NCBI GenBank assembly: GCA_902603055.1
Contig: CACKTD010000006.1
Span: 1-56,894 of the forward strand
Length of the DNA stretch: 56,894 nt
DNA from: Coxiellaceae bacterium
Lineage (GTDB): Bacteria > Pseudomonadota > Gammaproteobacteria > Comchoanobacterales > Comchoanobacteraceae
Direction: 5' to 3'
The number at the start of each line of letters is the position of its first letter. Position 1 is the stretch's first letter. This document shows, piece after piece, positions 7,587-53,901 of the stretch. The notes beneath the pieces are model-generated. The model did not search any database and had not been told where the DNA came from. It worked only from the letters and a program-made list of their open reading frames with translations. A program made the position numbers and the translations under genes.

Positions 7587-7805
7587 ATGAAACAAAATAT
7601 ACATCCTGTACTTAAATATACTAAAGTAATTTGCCGTGGCTGTTCTAACGAATTTGATGTCCTTGGACAACTAGACCGTTCACCCTACTTCATTGAAGTT
7701 TGTTCAAATTGTCATAGTGCTTATACAGGTAAAAGAAAGATTCTTTCCGCTGGTGCAATCGATAAATTTAAGAAGCGATACAAAAACCTTAAAACTGACG
7801 ATTAA
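7587..7805 (+). CDS. rpmE: 50S ribosomal protein L31
   Basis: Small zinc-binding protein of the large ribosomal subunit, 72 residues. The family start (M-K-x-x-IHP) and the C-terminal YTGKRKI / KFKKRY region are clear. Four cysteines at 16, 19, 39 and 42 (CRGC and CSNC) would bind zinc, making this the zinc-containing form. The first pair is C-x2-C where E. coli L31 has C-x-C. Single gene, convergent with dusA with only 13 nt between stops. Confidence 0.93.
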   Translation: MKQNIHPVLKYTKVICRGCSNEFDVLGQLDRSPYFIEVCSNCHSAYTGKRKILSAGAIDKFKKRYKNLKTDD

Positions 7806-48784: not shown

Positions 48785-49651
48785 TTAGTTAAAAAACAAT
48801 CTTAAAAACTCATCCATATCTTTTGGCACAGGAGATTTAAATATTAGTTTTTCATTTGTAACAGGATGATAAAATTCAACTATGTGTGCATGCAATAATA
48901 AACATTCATGTTTTTTTTCTTTATTAAGTTTAAAATTACCATATTTATCATCCCCAACAATAGGAAGATGATGCTCTTGTAAATGACGCCTAAGTTGATG
49001 CTTTCTTCCAGTTACTGGCATTAGCTCAAGATAACAATATTTGTCTGTTTGTTTTAATAGTTTAAGGTCAGTAATTGCACCATGAACTTTTTGGACATTG
49101 TCAGATTGGATTAATAATGGTTGATCGATACGATATTTATTTTTTTTGAAAGGCCATTTACCAAAACTAATTGCACGGTATATCTTTGATACTTTTTTAT
49201 CTTTGAACAACTGAGCCATTGATCTTGCTATCTGGTATTTTTTTGCATAAATAAGACATCCACTGGTCATTTTATCAAGACGATGTAGAGGATAGATTCT
49301 TTCTGAATACTTTTGACTAAGGAATGTACTAATATCTTTTTTTTCACCAGTACCAGGCTGTACTGCCATATTTCTTGATTTATTAATTACAATAAAATCA
49401 TCATCTTCAAACATAACATGAATATCTAACACCATATTTGTACCTAAAGTAACTTCATTTATTTTTGGGACCTTTATTAAATCGCCAAGCTGTAAGAGAT
49501 ATCCTTCCTTAGATCGTTTATTATTTACTCTAATATGCTTTTGTCGTATTAATCGATAAATTAACCCTTTAGAAACACCTGGGTACATTCGAAATAAAAA
49601 TTTATCCAATCGGCTATCAATGTTATCTGAAGTTATTTCTATTTCATTCAT
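48785..49651 (-). CDS. rluC: Ribosomal large-subunit pseudouridine synthase RluC
   Basis: 288-residue RluA-family enzyme. N-terminal S4 RNA-binding domain (about 12-65) and catalytic motif HRLDKMTSG with Asp126. RluC targets 23S U955, U2504 and U2580 in E. coli. The divergent pairing with rne is the typical rluC context and supports RluC over RluD. Confidence 0.93.
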   Translation of the reverse strand: MNEIEITSDNIDSRLDKFLFRMYPGVSKGLIYRLIRQKHIRVNNKRSKEGYLLQLGDLIKVPKINEVTLGTNMVLDIHVMFEDDDFIVINKSRNMAVQPGTGEKKDISTFLSQKYSERIYPLHRLDKMTSGCLIYAKKYQIARSMAQLFKDKKVSKIYRAISFGKWPFKKNKYRIDQPLLIQSDNVQKVHGAITDLKLLKQTDKYCYLELMPVTGRKHQLRRHLQEHHLPIVGDDKYGNFKLNKEKKHECLLLHAHIVEFYHPVTNEKLIFKSPVPKDMDEFLRLFFN

Positions 49652-49713
49652 AATATTATTATGTCATGGTTTAATTAAATTTAATATCGTACTATAGTAG
49701 TTATAGTTATTTT

Positions 49714-49719
49714 TATAAT
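49714..49719 (+). promoter_or_regulatory. Candidate -10 box for rne
   Basis: Perfect TATAAT 38 bp before the rne start in the 106-bp rluC/rne gap. No good -35 is seen. If used, the leader is only about 30 nt, too short for the long autoregulatory 5' UTR hairpins of E. coli rne. Confidence 0.35.
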
Positions 49720-49757
49720 ACAAAAGATTTTATGAATTTATTAAATAGAGAACATTT

Positions 49758-51563
49758 ATGGGAACAATATATATTAATGCACAATGGCCCGAAGAACTCC
49801 GAATCGCTACAGTTAAAAATGGAAAATTATTTGATTTAGAAATTGAGTTACAAAAGGCCAATAGAAACAAAGGGAATATTTACAATGCCAAAATAGTAAA
49901 GATAGAAAGTAGCTTAAACGCTGTCTTTTTAGATTATGGTGGTGTTAGAAATGGTTTTCTGCCACTGAAGGAAATCCACAAGGGTTATTTATCTCAGAAT
50001 CAAGATGGCAAACACAATCTAAGCGATCTTAAAATTGGACAAAAAATGCTTGTTCAAGTAGAAAAAGACGAACGTGGTGAGAAAGGTGCAGCCCTTACCA
50101 CCTATATTTCATTAGCAGGAACGTTTTTGGTTTTTATGCCTTTTAGTGGTAAAAGTGCTGTTACAAAACAAGCCGAAAATAAAGAGCGATCAGAATTGAA
50201 AGCCATCATTGAAGGGCTAAATCTTGATGAAGGAACAGGCATTATCGTAAGAACTGCAGGTATTGGCAAAACTAATGAAGAACTTTCATGGGATTATAAT
50301 GCACTTAAACATCATTGGTCCATAATTGAAAATGCCAGTAATCAAAACGAAGCACCATGTATGATTTTTCAAGAATCTGATACATTAATACGGGTTTTGA
50401 GAGATAACTTACGTCAGGATACAGATAAAATAATTATTGATACACAAAAGGGATTTGATTTAGTTAAGTCTTTTTTATCACAGACCAGACCTGGTAGTGA
50501 GGAAATTGTTGAATTAAATGACCAAACATTACCACTTTTTACTCAATTTGATCTTGAGGATAAAATTAAATCCATCTATGACCGTGAAATAAGACTTCCA
50601 TCTGGTGGCGCAATCATTATTGATACTACAGAAGCTTTAACAGCCATTGATGTCAACTCCTCACGATCAACAAAGAGTACAGACATCGAAACAACAGCTA
50701 AACATACCAATCTTGAAGCAATAGAAGTCATAGCAAATCAGTTACGAATACGTGATATTGGTGGGATCGTTGTAATTGATTTCATTGACATGAATGAGAA
50801 GTCTCATCGTACTGAAGTAGAAGATAGAGCTAAACAGTTATTTAGTTTAGATCGTGCTAAAATTAAGACTGAAAGCATATCAAATCTTACAGGCTGCATG
50901 TCACTTCTAAGACAAAGATTAAGATCATTTGCAAATAATATTATGACATTTAAAAGTGAATGTAATATTGATAGTTTTGCAATGTACTTACTACGAAATA
51001 CACAATCATTGGCATCTGAAGCACAAGTAAAAAACGTTCAATTACAGGTATCTGTAAATATTGCAACGTATATTCTCAACGAGTGTCGTGAAATTATAAA
51101 TCGTATTTCAGCTAATGTAGATTGCCAAATTCATGTGATTCCTAATCCAAACTATGCAGTAAATGAATACTCTTTAAAGGCAATTAGAGGTCTTGCAGAA
51201 AGTGCTCCCCCATCATATACACAAAAAGATCAGATAAGCCCTGAATCTAACTATGATTTAAACGCTAATAACAACCGGACACATCAAACACCTGCAATTA
51301 CTGAAAATCTTTATAACCAACCGTTGCCTAAGGGTAATCCGCTAGCACTATTTATTCGTTTTTTCTTTAACCTTTTTAAAAATGAACAATCCAGTCCTAA
51401 AAAATCACATTCTAAAAAGACTGATAAACCAGAAAATTCCTCTTCAAGTACTCGTAAACCTTATGGAAAACGTCATTCAAAAGGTAATCAGTATCGAAGA
51501 AAAAGAAACACACCTTATAATAATCGGAAGAAAACTGTTAGCCGCGCAGATTCTGATAAGTAA
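49758..51563 (+). CDS. rne: Ribonuclease E, compact and lacking the Zn-link motif
   Basis: Main endoribonuclease of mRNA decay and rRNA/tRNA processing. 601 residues: S1 domain (about 35-118), 5' sensor and DNase I-like catalytic domain with Asp298 (AIDVNS) and Asp341 (VIDFIDM). After RQRLR (about 385-389) the usual CPRCxGTG zinc-link is replaced by sequence with a single cysteine (C402). Residues 527-541 (PLALFIRFFFNLFK region) look like the membrane-binding helix of RNase E, followed by a Lys/Arg-rich tail to the end, so this is RNase E and not RNase G. Convergent 26-nt overlap with tsaE. Confidence 0.93.
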   Translation: MGTIYINAQWPEELRIATVKNGKLFDLEIELQKANRNKGNIYNAKIVKIESSLNAVFLDYGGVRNGFLPLKEIHKGYLSQNQDGKHNLSDLKIGQKMLVQVEKDERGEKGAALTTYISLAGTFLVFMPFSGKSAVTKQAENKERSELKAIIEGLNLDEGTGIIVRTAGIGKTNEELSWDYNALKHHWSIIENASNQNEAPCMIFQESDTLIRVLRDNLRQDTDKIIIDTQKGFDLVKSFLSQTRPGSEEIVELNDQTLPLFTQFDLEDKIKSIYDREIRLPSGGAIIIDTTEALTAIDVNSSRSTKSTDIETTAKHTNLEAIEVIANQLRIRDIGGIVVIDFIDMNEKSHRTEVEDRAKQLFSLDRAKIKTESISNLTGCMSLLRQRLRSFANNIMTFKSECNIDSFAMYLLRNTQSLASEAQVKNVQLQVSVNIATYILNECREIINRISANVDCQIHVIPNPNYAVNEYSLKAIRGLAESAPPSYTQKDQISPESNYDLNANNNRTHQTPAITENLYNQPLPKGNPLALFIRFFFNLFKNEQSSPKKSHSKKTDKPENSSSSTRKPYGKRHSKGNQYRRKRNTPYNNRKKTVSRADSDK

Positions 51564-51951: not shown

Positions 51952-53363
51952 GTATGGTATTTTATAATAATTGGTATAGAGGATACAAGATCATCCGCTG
52001 TTAATCCATTTCCAAGCTTTGAACCAACATATTCACCTACTTCTGCATGAGTACAAATAGCATTTGTTATTGATTCAAAAGTAACCCCAAATTGTGCAAT
52101 AAAACCGCCAATAATACCTGATAATACATCCCCACTTCCTGCGGTGGCTAATACAGAAGATCCTCCAGGAATAATTGCGAGTCGACTCTCATGAACGATA
52201 ATTGTAGATATGCCTTTTAATACTATATTACATCCGAATAAATTGTAGAGTTCATTTGCAGCTAATATTGGGTTTTGACAAACTTCTTCTATGGATACCT
52301 GTAGCAAACGTGCAGCTTCCTTATAATGAGGCGTAATTACATCATTGGGGGATATAATACTTTTTCCTGATAAGTAGTTTAATGCTCCGCCATCAATTAC
52401 TTTAATAACATCTTTAGATAATACATCATTTATAAGCTGAGTATGATCCTGATTATTCGCTGAAATACCTGGACCAATAACTATGACGGGATTATGTTCT
52501 TTAATCACTGCATGAAAAACCTGATCATCATAATGCTCAGATATTACTGAATGCATATTGTTAATTGGTTTTGATGACAATTGCATTAAATAAGAATACC
52601 CACAACCACTTTTAATCGCTGCATGTGTTGCTAATAATGCAGCTCCCTCCATGGATTCATCCCCTCCAATCGTAATTACACGACCAGCATTACCTTTGTG
52701 AAAATTCTGGGGTCTTGATGGAATATTAAAGTTTTCAATTAATTCATAACCATGGCTTTTTAATTGATAATCAGGGGATATTACAATGATCTTTCCACAA
52801 CTATCCTTACCAGGACCAAGAAAAAAACCTGGCTTTAAGCCAAAATATGTAAGTGTTAAATCTACTTTGATTACAGCATCTAAATGCTGCCCTTCAGAAC
52901 CAAGACCTGAAGGAATATCCAGTGCTATTTTTATTGCACTAACATTATTAAACCATCTAATAGCGTTATCTAATGATGGAGTTAACTTTAGGTTTAAACC
53001 TATCCCAATTACAGCATCAACCAATACATGATATTCTTTATCCGGAAATCTTTGTTGAATAAGTTTATTTTTTTTTAAATAGTTTTTTTGAGAAACTGGA
53101 ATTTTAATCTCATCAAATACTTGAATAATATCTACAGCATAACCTTGTTCATATAAAGAAATACCAACTAATACCCCTAACATACCGTTATCACCATTAC
53201 CAACTAAGATACCTATGTTAGATCCCTTTGTGATATATTCTTTTATTCGATTTACAGAATAGAATGATAACAACTCTGGCAAACGTTGCTTTTTTTGTTT
53301 GGAACAATCGATCCAAGTCTTTTCTAAATCTTTAATCTGTTTTTTTGTGTATATTTTCATCAA
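51945..53363 (-). CDS. nnr: Bifunctional NAD(P)HX epimerase/dehydratase
   Basis: Repairs hydrated NAD(P)H. 472 residues: N-terminal YjeF epimerase domain (about 1-200) and C-terminal ADP-dependent dehydratase (about 220-470) with GRVITIGGDESMEGAALL and TAGSGDVLSGIIGGF. The dehydratase motifs look intact. The epimerase glycine motif, usually NNGGDG, reads DNGMLG here (residues 58-63), although VDAVIG with its Asp is present, so epimerase activity may be weakened. Start overlaps the orn end by 32 nt; M2 at 53360 is an equal candidate. Confidence 0.94.
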   Translation of the reverse strand: MMKIYTKKQIKDLEKTWIDCSKQKKQRLPELLSFYSVNRIKEYITKGSNIGILVGNGDNGMLGVLVGISLYEQGYAVDIIQVFDEIKIPVSQKNYLKKNKLIQQRFPDKEYHVLVDAVIGIGLNLKLTPSLDNAIRWFNNVSAIKIALDIPSGLGSEGQHLDAVIKVDLTLTYFGLKPGFFLGPGKDSCGKIIVISPDYQLKSHGYELIENFNIPSRPQNFHKGNAGRVITIGGDESMEGAALLATHAAIKSGCGYSYLMQLSSKPINNMHSVISEHYDDQVFHAVIKEHNPVIVIGPGISANNQDHTQLINDVLSKDVIKVIDGGALNYLSGKSIISPNDVITPHYKEAARLLQVSIEEVCQNPILAANELYNLFGCNIVLKGISTIIVHESRLAIIPGGSSVLATAGSGDVLSGIIGGFIAQFGVTFESITNAICTHAEVGEYVGSKLGNGLTADDLVSSIPIIIKYHTC

Positions 53364-53901
53364 ATGAACTTTTTATCATAGCCTTCATATAATATTGTAG
53401 CTCATATACAGATTCTTTGATGTCATCCATTGCACGATGCGTGTTTTTTTTGGGGAATTCTTTCACTAAATTAACTTTTAAATCATATATTATTTTTAAT
53501 GTGGTCACGTCTAGATGCCGGTAATGAAAAAAATTAGCAAGTTTGGGCATATATTTTACTAAAAATCGACGATCTTGAGATACTGTATTACCACACATTG
53601 GAGAAACACCTGATTCAAGGTGCTTTGATAAAAAATCCAATGTTTCTTGCTCGGCTTTTTCACATGAAATTTTGCTTTCTGGGATCTTTGGCCATAATCC
53701 TGATTGGACATGTAGTTGTTTTGCAAATGGAGACGAATTTTCTAAAATAGATAATGGCTGATGAATAATTAGATTTGGTCCCTCCTCTAAAATATTAAAC
53801 TCAGTGTCAGTGACTAATGTTGCAATTTCCACAATGTGGTGTTGATCTGGCTCTAAACCAGTCATTTCAAGATCTATCCAGATTAATTTACTCAATTTCA
53901 T
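53332..53901 (-). CDS. orn: Oligoribonuclease
   Basis: Essential 3'-5' exonuclease degrading 2-5-nt RNAs and pGpG. 189 residues. DEDDh motifs: IDLEMTGL (Asp10, Glu12), CGNTVSQDRRFL and HRAMDDIKES. First gene of orn-nnr-tsaE on the minus strand, divergent from plsY. Confidence 0.97.
   Translation of the reverse strand: MKLSKLIWIDLEMTGLEPDQHHIVEIATLVTDTEFNILEEGPNLIIHQPLSILENSSPFAKQLHVQSGLWPKIPESKISCEKAEQETLDFLSKHLESGVSPMCGNTVSQDRRFLVKYMPKLANFFHYRHLDVTTLKIIYDLKVNLVKEFPKKNTHRAMDDIKESVYELQYYMKAMIKSSFDENIHKKTD

Follow-up and report, generated by a model that had tools for sequence, protein, structure and literature searches.

RNase E, an essential RNA-cutting enzyme, is described as a homotetramer with two zinc ions, in which the Zn-link clips the subunits to one another. 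The Zn-link is presented as the organizer of both the quaternary structure and the active site of RNase E, and Escherichia coli mutants support that role. In the E. coli enzyme, as reported in PMC2631609, most of the dimer interface is formed by the DNase I-like domains, dimers are connected to one another through the small domains, and residues R169-T170 act as the 5' sensor. When the zinc motif is mutated or deleted, no tetramer is formed and the activity is substantially lower (PMC2631609); hence, an uncompensated loss of the motif should be costly. When the tetramer is held artificially, activity is preserved without the zinc site (Callaghan 2005, cited in PMC12510024). A search of open-access papers yielded no description of a natural Zn-link-free RNase E.

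The window analyzed here is the whole stretch of 56,894 nucleotides, with approximately 32% GC, and belongs to a genome of 0.98 Mb assembled. It contains an rne gene whose product has no Zn-link. No other RNase E/G was detected in the assembly (which is 74% complete), and, judging from its sequence, this product is probably a working RNase E, bound to the membrane, that does without the shared zinc.

The rne gene and its neighborhood

The gene and its divergent neighbor are located as follows:

48785-49651, - strand: rluC (pseudouridine synthase with S4 domain; Pfam), divergent neighbor of rne
49758-51563, + strand: rne, RNase E, 601 aa (Pfam PF10150, 4.6e-81; TIGR00757, 408.6 bits; E. coli RNase E 2vmk, 1.8e-116)

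The 601-residue product scores 272.6 bits against PF10150 (cut-off 25.5), which places it in the RNase E/G family, and its TIGR00757 score likewise exceeds the cut-off of 325.95. Against the NCBIfam RNase E equivalog PRK10811 it scores 447.8 bits, under a whole-length cut-off of 908 that applies to a model of 1068 positions, E. coli C-terminal half included. An RluC-like ORF adjoins rne in most relatives, Zn-link-positive and Zn-link-negative alike, and this synteny supports the identification of the gene as rne.

The gap between rluC and rne (49652-49757) spans 106 nt and yielded no Rfam match; given these two observations, no E. coli-type autoregulatory 5' leader is recognizable, and this candidate was rejected. 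On the other side of the gene, the 3' ends of rne (+ strand) and tsaE (- strand) overlap by 26 bases (51538-51563), and the genes found downstream on the - strand are tsaE, nnr and an RNase_T exonuclease (53332-53901).

Retained domains and predicted structure

Four elements of the catalytic half were located outside the link:

49863-50123, + strand: S1 RNA-binding subdomain, approximately residues 36-122 (Pfam S1 match at 37-114; phmmer and structural match to E. coli S1)
50250-50255, + strand: 5'-sensor Arg165-Thr166 (E. coli R169-T170), invariant in the alignment
50580-50918, + strand: DNase I-like subdomain, residues 275-387 (VIA-align Z of 20.8 and rmsd of 0.8 against the V. cholerae DNase I domain 6x2d, 6x2d_B)
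50967-51185, + strand: small domain, residues 404-476 (PF20833, 9.6e-12 over 404-474; model blocks mostly at pLDDT 71-89)

The catalytic residues D298, N300 and D341 (D303, N305 and D346 in E. coli) lie in the DNase I-like subdomain and are invariant in the alignment, in line with the original prediction, according to which both aspartates were intact. The Pfam S1 match scores 24.2 bits. The small domain is recognized by PF20833 with 45.3 bits (cut-off 26.8), in an alignment that starts only at model position 14 of a profile beginning at the Zn-link.

The AlphaFold2 model, built from 8 sequences, presents a mean pLDDT of 71 and a pTM of 0.58. It has the RNase E fold, and its closest solved structure is 2vmk_A (Z of 38.0). 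The rmsd of 14.7 over 465 residues between the two reflects domain placement, hence only single domains are informative in this comparison. Within the catalytic half, the link alone has no confident structure (pLDDT below 50 at residues 390-402).

Two further elements follow the small domain:

51339-51386, + strand: amphipathic helix, residues 528-543 (MTS; predicted helix, aligning with the MTS of other gammaproteobacteria)
51402-51560, + strand: Arg/Lys-rich tail (AR1-like), with 18 K/R and 4 D/E in 53 residues (composition)

Residues 528-543 are modelled as a helix with low confidence, and 0.05% of shuffled C-terminal regions attain their hydrophobic moment of 0.60. The MTS and AR1 of gammaproteobacterial RNase E are thus both found by sequence and prediction, and AR1 has been considered ancestral in gammaproteobacteria (PMC4435900). 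The membrane-anchor-like helix and basic tail that had been singled out in the original prediction are present, yet they are nothing special: as far as their sequences tell, they correspond to the MTS and AR1 that are usual in gammaproteobacterial RNase E, and are not peculiar to this protein.

The altered link

The segment between the DNase I-like subdomain and the small domain is where this protein departs from the expected pattern:

50919-50966, + strand: altered link, residues 388-403 (LRSFANNIMTFKSECN), Zn-link absent (alignments; AlphaFold pLDDT below 50 at 390-402)
50961-50963, + strand: Cys402, leftover second Cys of CPxC (alignment; same in the relative G002)

The sequence of residues 385-405 is RQRLRSFANNIMTFKSECNID. 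KSEC aligns with CPRC, such that the first Cys is replaced by Lys399 and the second is kept as Cys402, and eight residues are deleted, among them the GxGxxR stretch that follows the second Cys. The CPxCxGxG motif that marks the Zn-link in RNase E is therefore missing, which bears out the earlier claim of a segment without CPRC and with a single Cys. All 38 RNase Es scored as CxxC-positive in the link segment have Cys in the two alignment columns that hold residues 399 and 402 of this protein. The possibility of a sequence error, raised together with that claim, did not hold: given that the frame is open and that the same KSEC linker is found in G002, we reject a sequencing or assembly error and consider the loss real.

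Relatives within the home order

The home order consists of one family of gammaproteobacteria with genomes of approximately 1 Mb, of which 14 were compared. We infer that it fits Candidatus Comchoanobacterales, formerly UBA7916, described in PMC9418006 as small-genome marine lineages of which at least some are host-associated. An RNase E match was found in 11 of the 14 genomes, and ten of these matches cover the link; in the same-genus genome G001, rne ends at residue 362, at the contig end, short of the link.

A check of whether relatives share the loss had been proposed, and they do. CxxC is absent from five of the ten RNase Es covering the link (G000, G002, G005, G009 and G013) and kept in the other five (G003, G004, G006, G010 and G012). 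The nearest relative covering the link, G002, presents 54-55% identity to this RNase E and the linker TVKSECQ, against TFKSECN here. Identity to G002 in the small domain is only 39%, which suggests possible drift at the interface of this domain as well. In a tree computed without the link columns the five Zn-link-free members cluster with moderate support (SH-aLRT of approximately 86), while in a larger quick tree they fall into two groups; hence, either one or two losses within the home order fit these results.

A second loss in another order

The small-domain profile, which starts at the Zn-link, was run as a screen over 274 genomes of the class, and the low scorers were read. Among these low scorers, further losses were confined to G044 and G188, both from one other order. 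Thirty genomes of that order had a match, and all 29 rne genes read (L036, L039 and L055-L081) are without CPxC; given this, the Zn-link is not treated here as defining for RNase E. The order comprises four families with genomes of 0.9-1.8 Mb and is probably SAR86/Magnimaribacterales, with whose description in PMC11582366 the four families and genome sizes are consistent. Two of its families have the linker ERW[T/Q]QD in common.

Placing all Zn-link-free proteins in one group was rejected (AU p = 0.0005, tree without the link columns), which indicates at least two separate losses of the Zn-link. Horizontal transfer from the second order was considered and is unsupported, as the ten home-order RNase Es form one group (support of 99) and the linkers differ. 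Five RNase E matches in IMG/VR (viral) all have CPxC, one of them (L145) with a changed GxG, hence no further loss is seen among the RNase Es of this viral collection. A search with this query retrieved no RNase E/G from four genomes of the class, G091, G105, G031 and G199; G091 and G105 are at least 94% complete and larger than 1.5 Mb.

A few controls were picked from a phylum-wide protein search. A 0.28-Mb genome and two genomes of approximately 1 Mb, all outside both orders, keep CPRC, so that genome reduction alone is not the cause of the loss. The same genomes weigh against decay, i.e., an rne gene degenerating in a shrinking genome and leaving an impaired enzyme. Although decay would agree with the small assembled genome and with a fast-evolving family, the frame is open, the catalytic and sensor residues are invariant, a second RNase E/G is not detected in the 74% complete assembly, and the loss is maintained throughout the second order. 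We regard decay as highly improbable.

Alternative ligands and zinc sites elsewhere

Three cysteines, C380, C402 and C443, had been put forward as alternative zinc ligands. The first fails as a replacement ligand and was rejected: C380 also occurs in L021 and L027, family members that keep CxxC, and so does not compensate for the loss. As for the others, C402 is the leftover Cys of the motif and C443 is common to G002 only. A rebuilt clip could be formed by C402 of two protomers, with C443 or other side chains, holding either zinc or an inter-protomer disulfide; the normally reducing cytoplasm argues against the latter. Such a clip appears unlikely. Both C402 and C443 occur in this protein and in G002, and, as reported in PMC12510024 for the Caulobacter link in E. 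coli, foci form after a single Cys-to-Ala change and mostly do not after a double one. However, the Zn-link-free G005, G009 and G013 have neither C402 nor C443, the second order is without such Cys, and the model gives the link region low confidence. The first two of these observations indicate the loss needs no rebuilding.

The loss could also be part of a wider economy, in which zinc is scarce and the organism drops zinc sites generally. In the second order, ribosomal L31 (L098-L102, L095 and L096) is Cys-free in five of the seven genomes read, as such an economy would have it, and Cys-bearing in G044 and G285; the zinc cysteines of L36 are kept there too. In this genome, however, L31 (window 7587-7784) keeps its zinc cysteines, and both the CxxC...CxxC of L31 and the CxxC...C...H of L36 are found here and in the relatives read. 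General zinc sparing is thus disfavored for this genome, and we consider it very unlikely.

Mode of action and comparison with known enzymes

In an enzyme that no longer uses shared zinc, protomers would pair via the DNase I-like interface, and packing of the small domains would persist. The result would be either a dimer or a looser tetramer, free of metal, in which a flexible linker of 13-16 residues would join the domains. Since the protein retains both its domain for dimerization (DNase I-like) and the small domain, such a metal-free dimer or tetramer is likelier than a monomer. It is possible, as suggested in the original prediction, that this RNase E acts as a dimer or monomer, or dimerizes differently. 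With some reserve, we favor the reading that the Zn-link-free enzyme is a dimer or loose tetramer and that RNA decay dependent on the 5' end can proceed without the Zn-link.

Since the loss is real, common to small-genome relatives and separate in a second order, the Zn-link seems dispensable in nature. With natural Zn-link-free enzymes it can be tested directly which purpose the tetramer serves (tethering of 5' ends across protomers or internal entry), and in what way interfaces adapt to losing a shared metal site. Should the second order prove to be SAR86, the textbook model would not hold for the main RNA-decay enzyme of very abundant ocean bacteria.

In comparison with the catalytic domain of E. 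coli RNase E (2vmk, 2bx2 and 5f6c), this protein presents 42-44% identity and has the same domain order, active site, 5' sensor, DNase I-like domain and small domain, followed, as in E. coli, by an MTS-like helix and an Arg-rich segment. It differs in having no CPxCxGxG, in a link eight residues shorter, and in a C-terminal half reduced to approximately 120 residues, too short for the array of degradosome partners found in E. coli. With RNase G and the rest of the RNase E/G family it has the catalytic domain family in common. Its score against the NCBIfam RNase G model, however, is 257 bits, below the cut-off of 594, against 448 bits for the RNase E model, and unlike RNase G it bears an MTS and a basic tail, as RNase E does, and has rluC as a neighbor. 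The RNase Es of the second order (L036, L039 and L055-L081) have wholly lost CPxC and, as is the case here, keep the catalytic core and the small domain, yet their linkers (ERWTQD, ESYDIEHVLVRG and LMGKTIWVRS) are unlike the KSEC linker of this protein.
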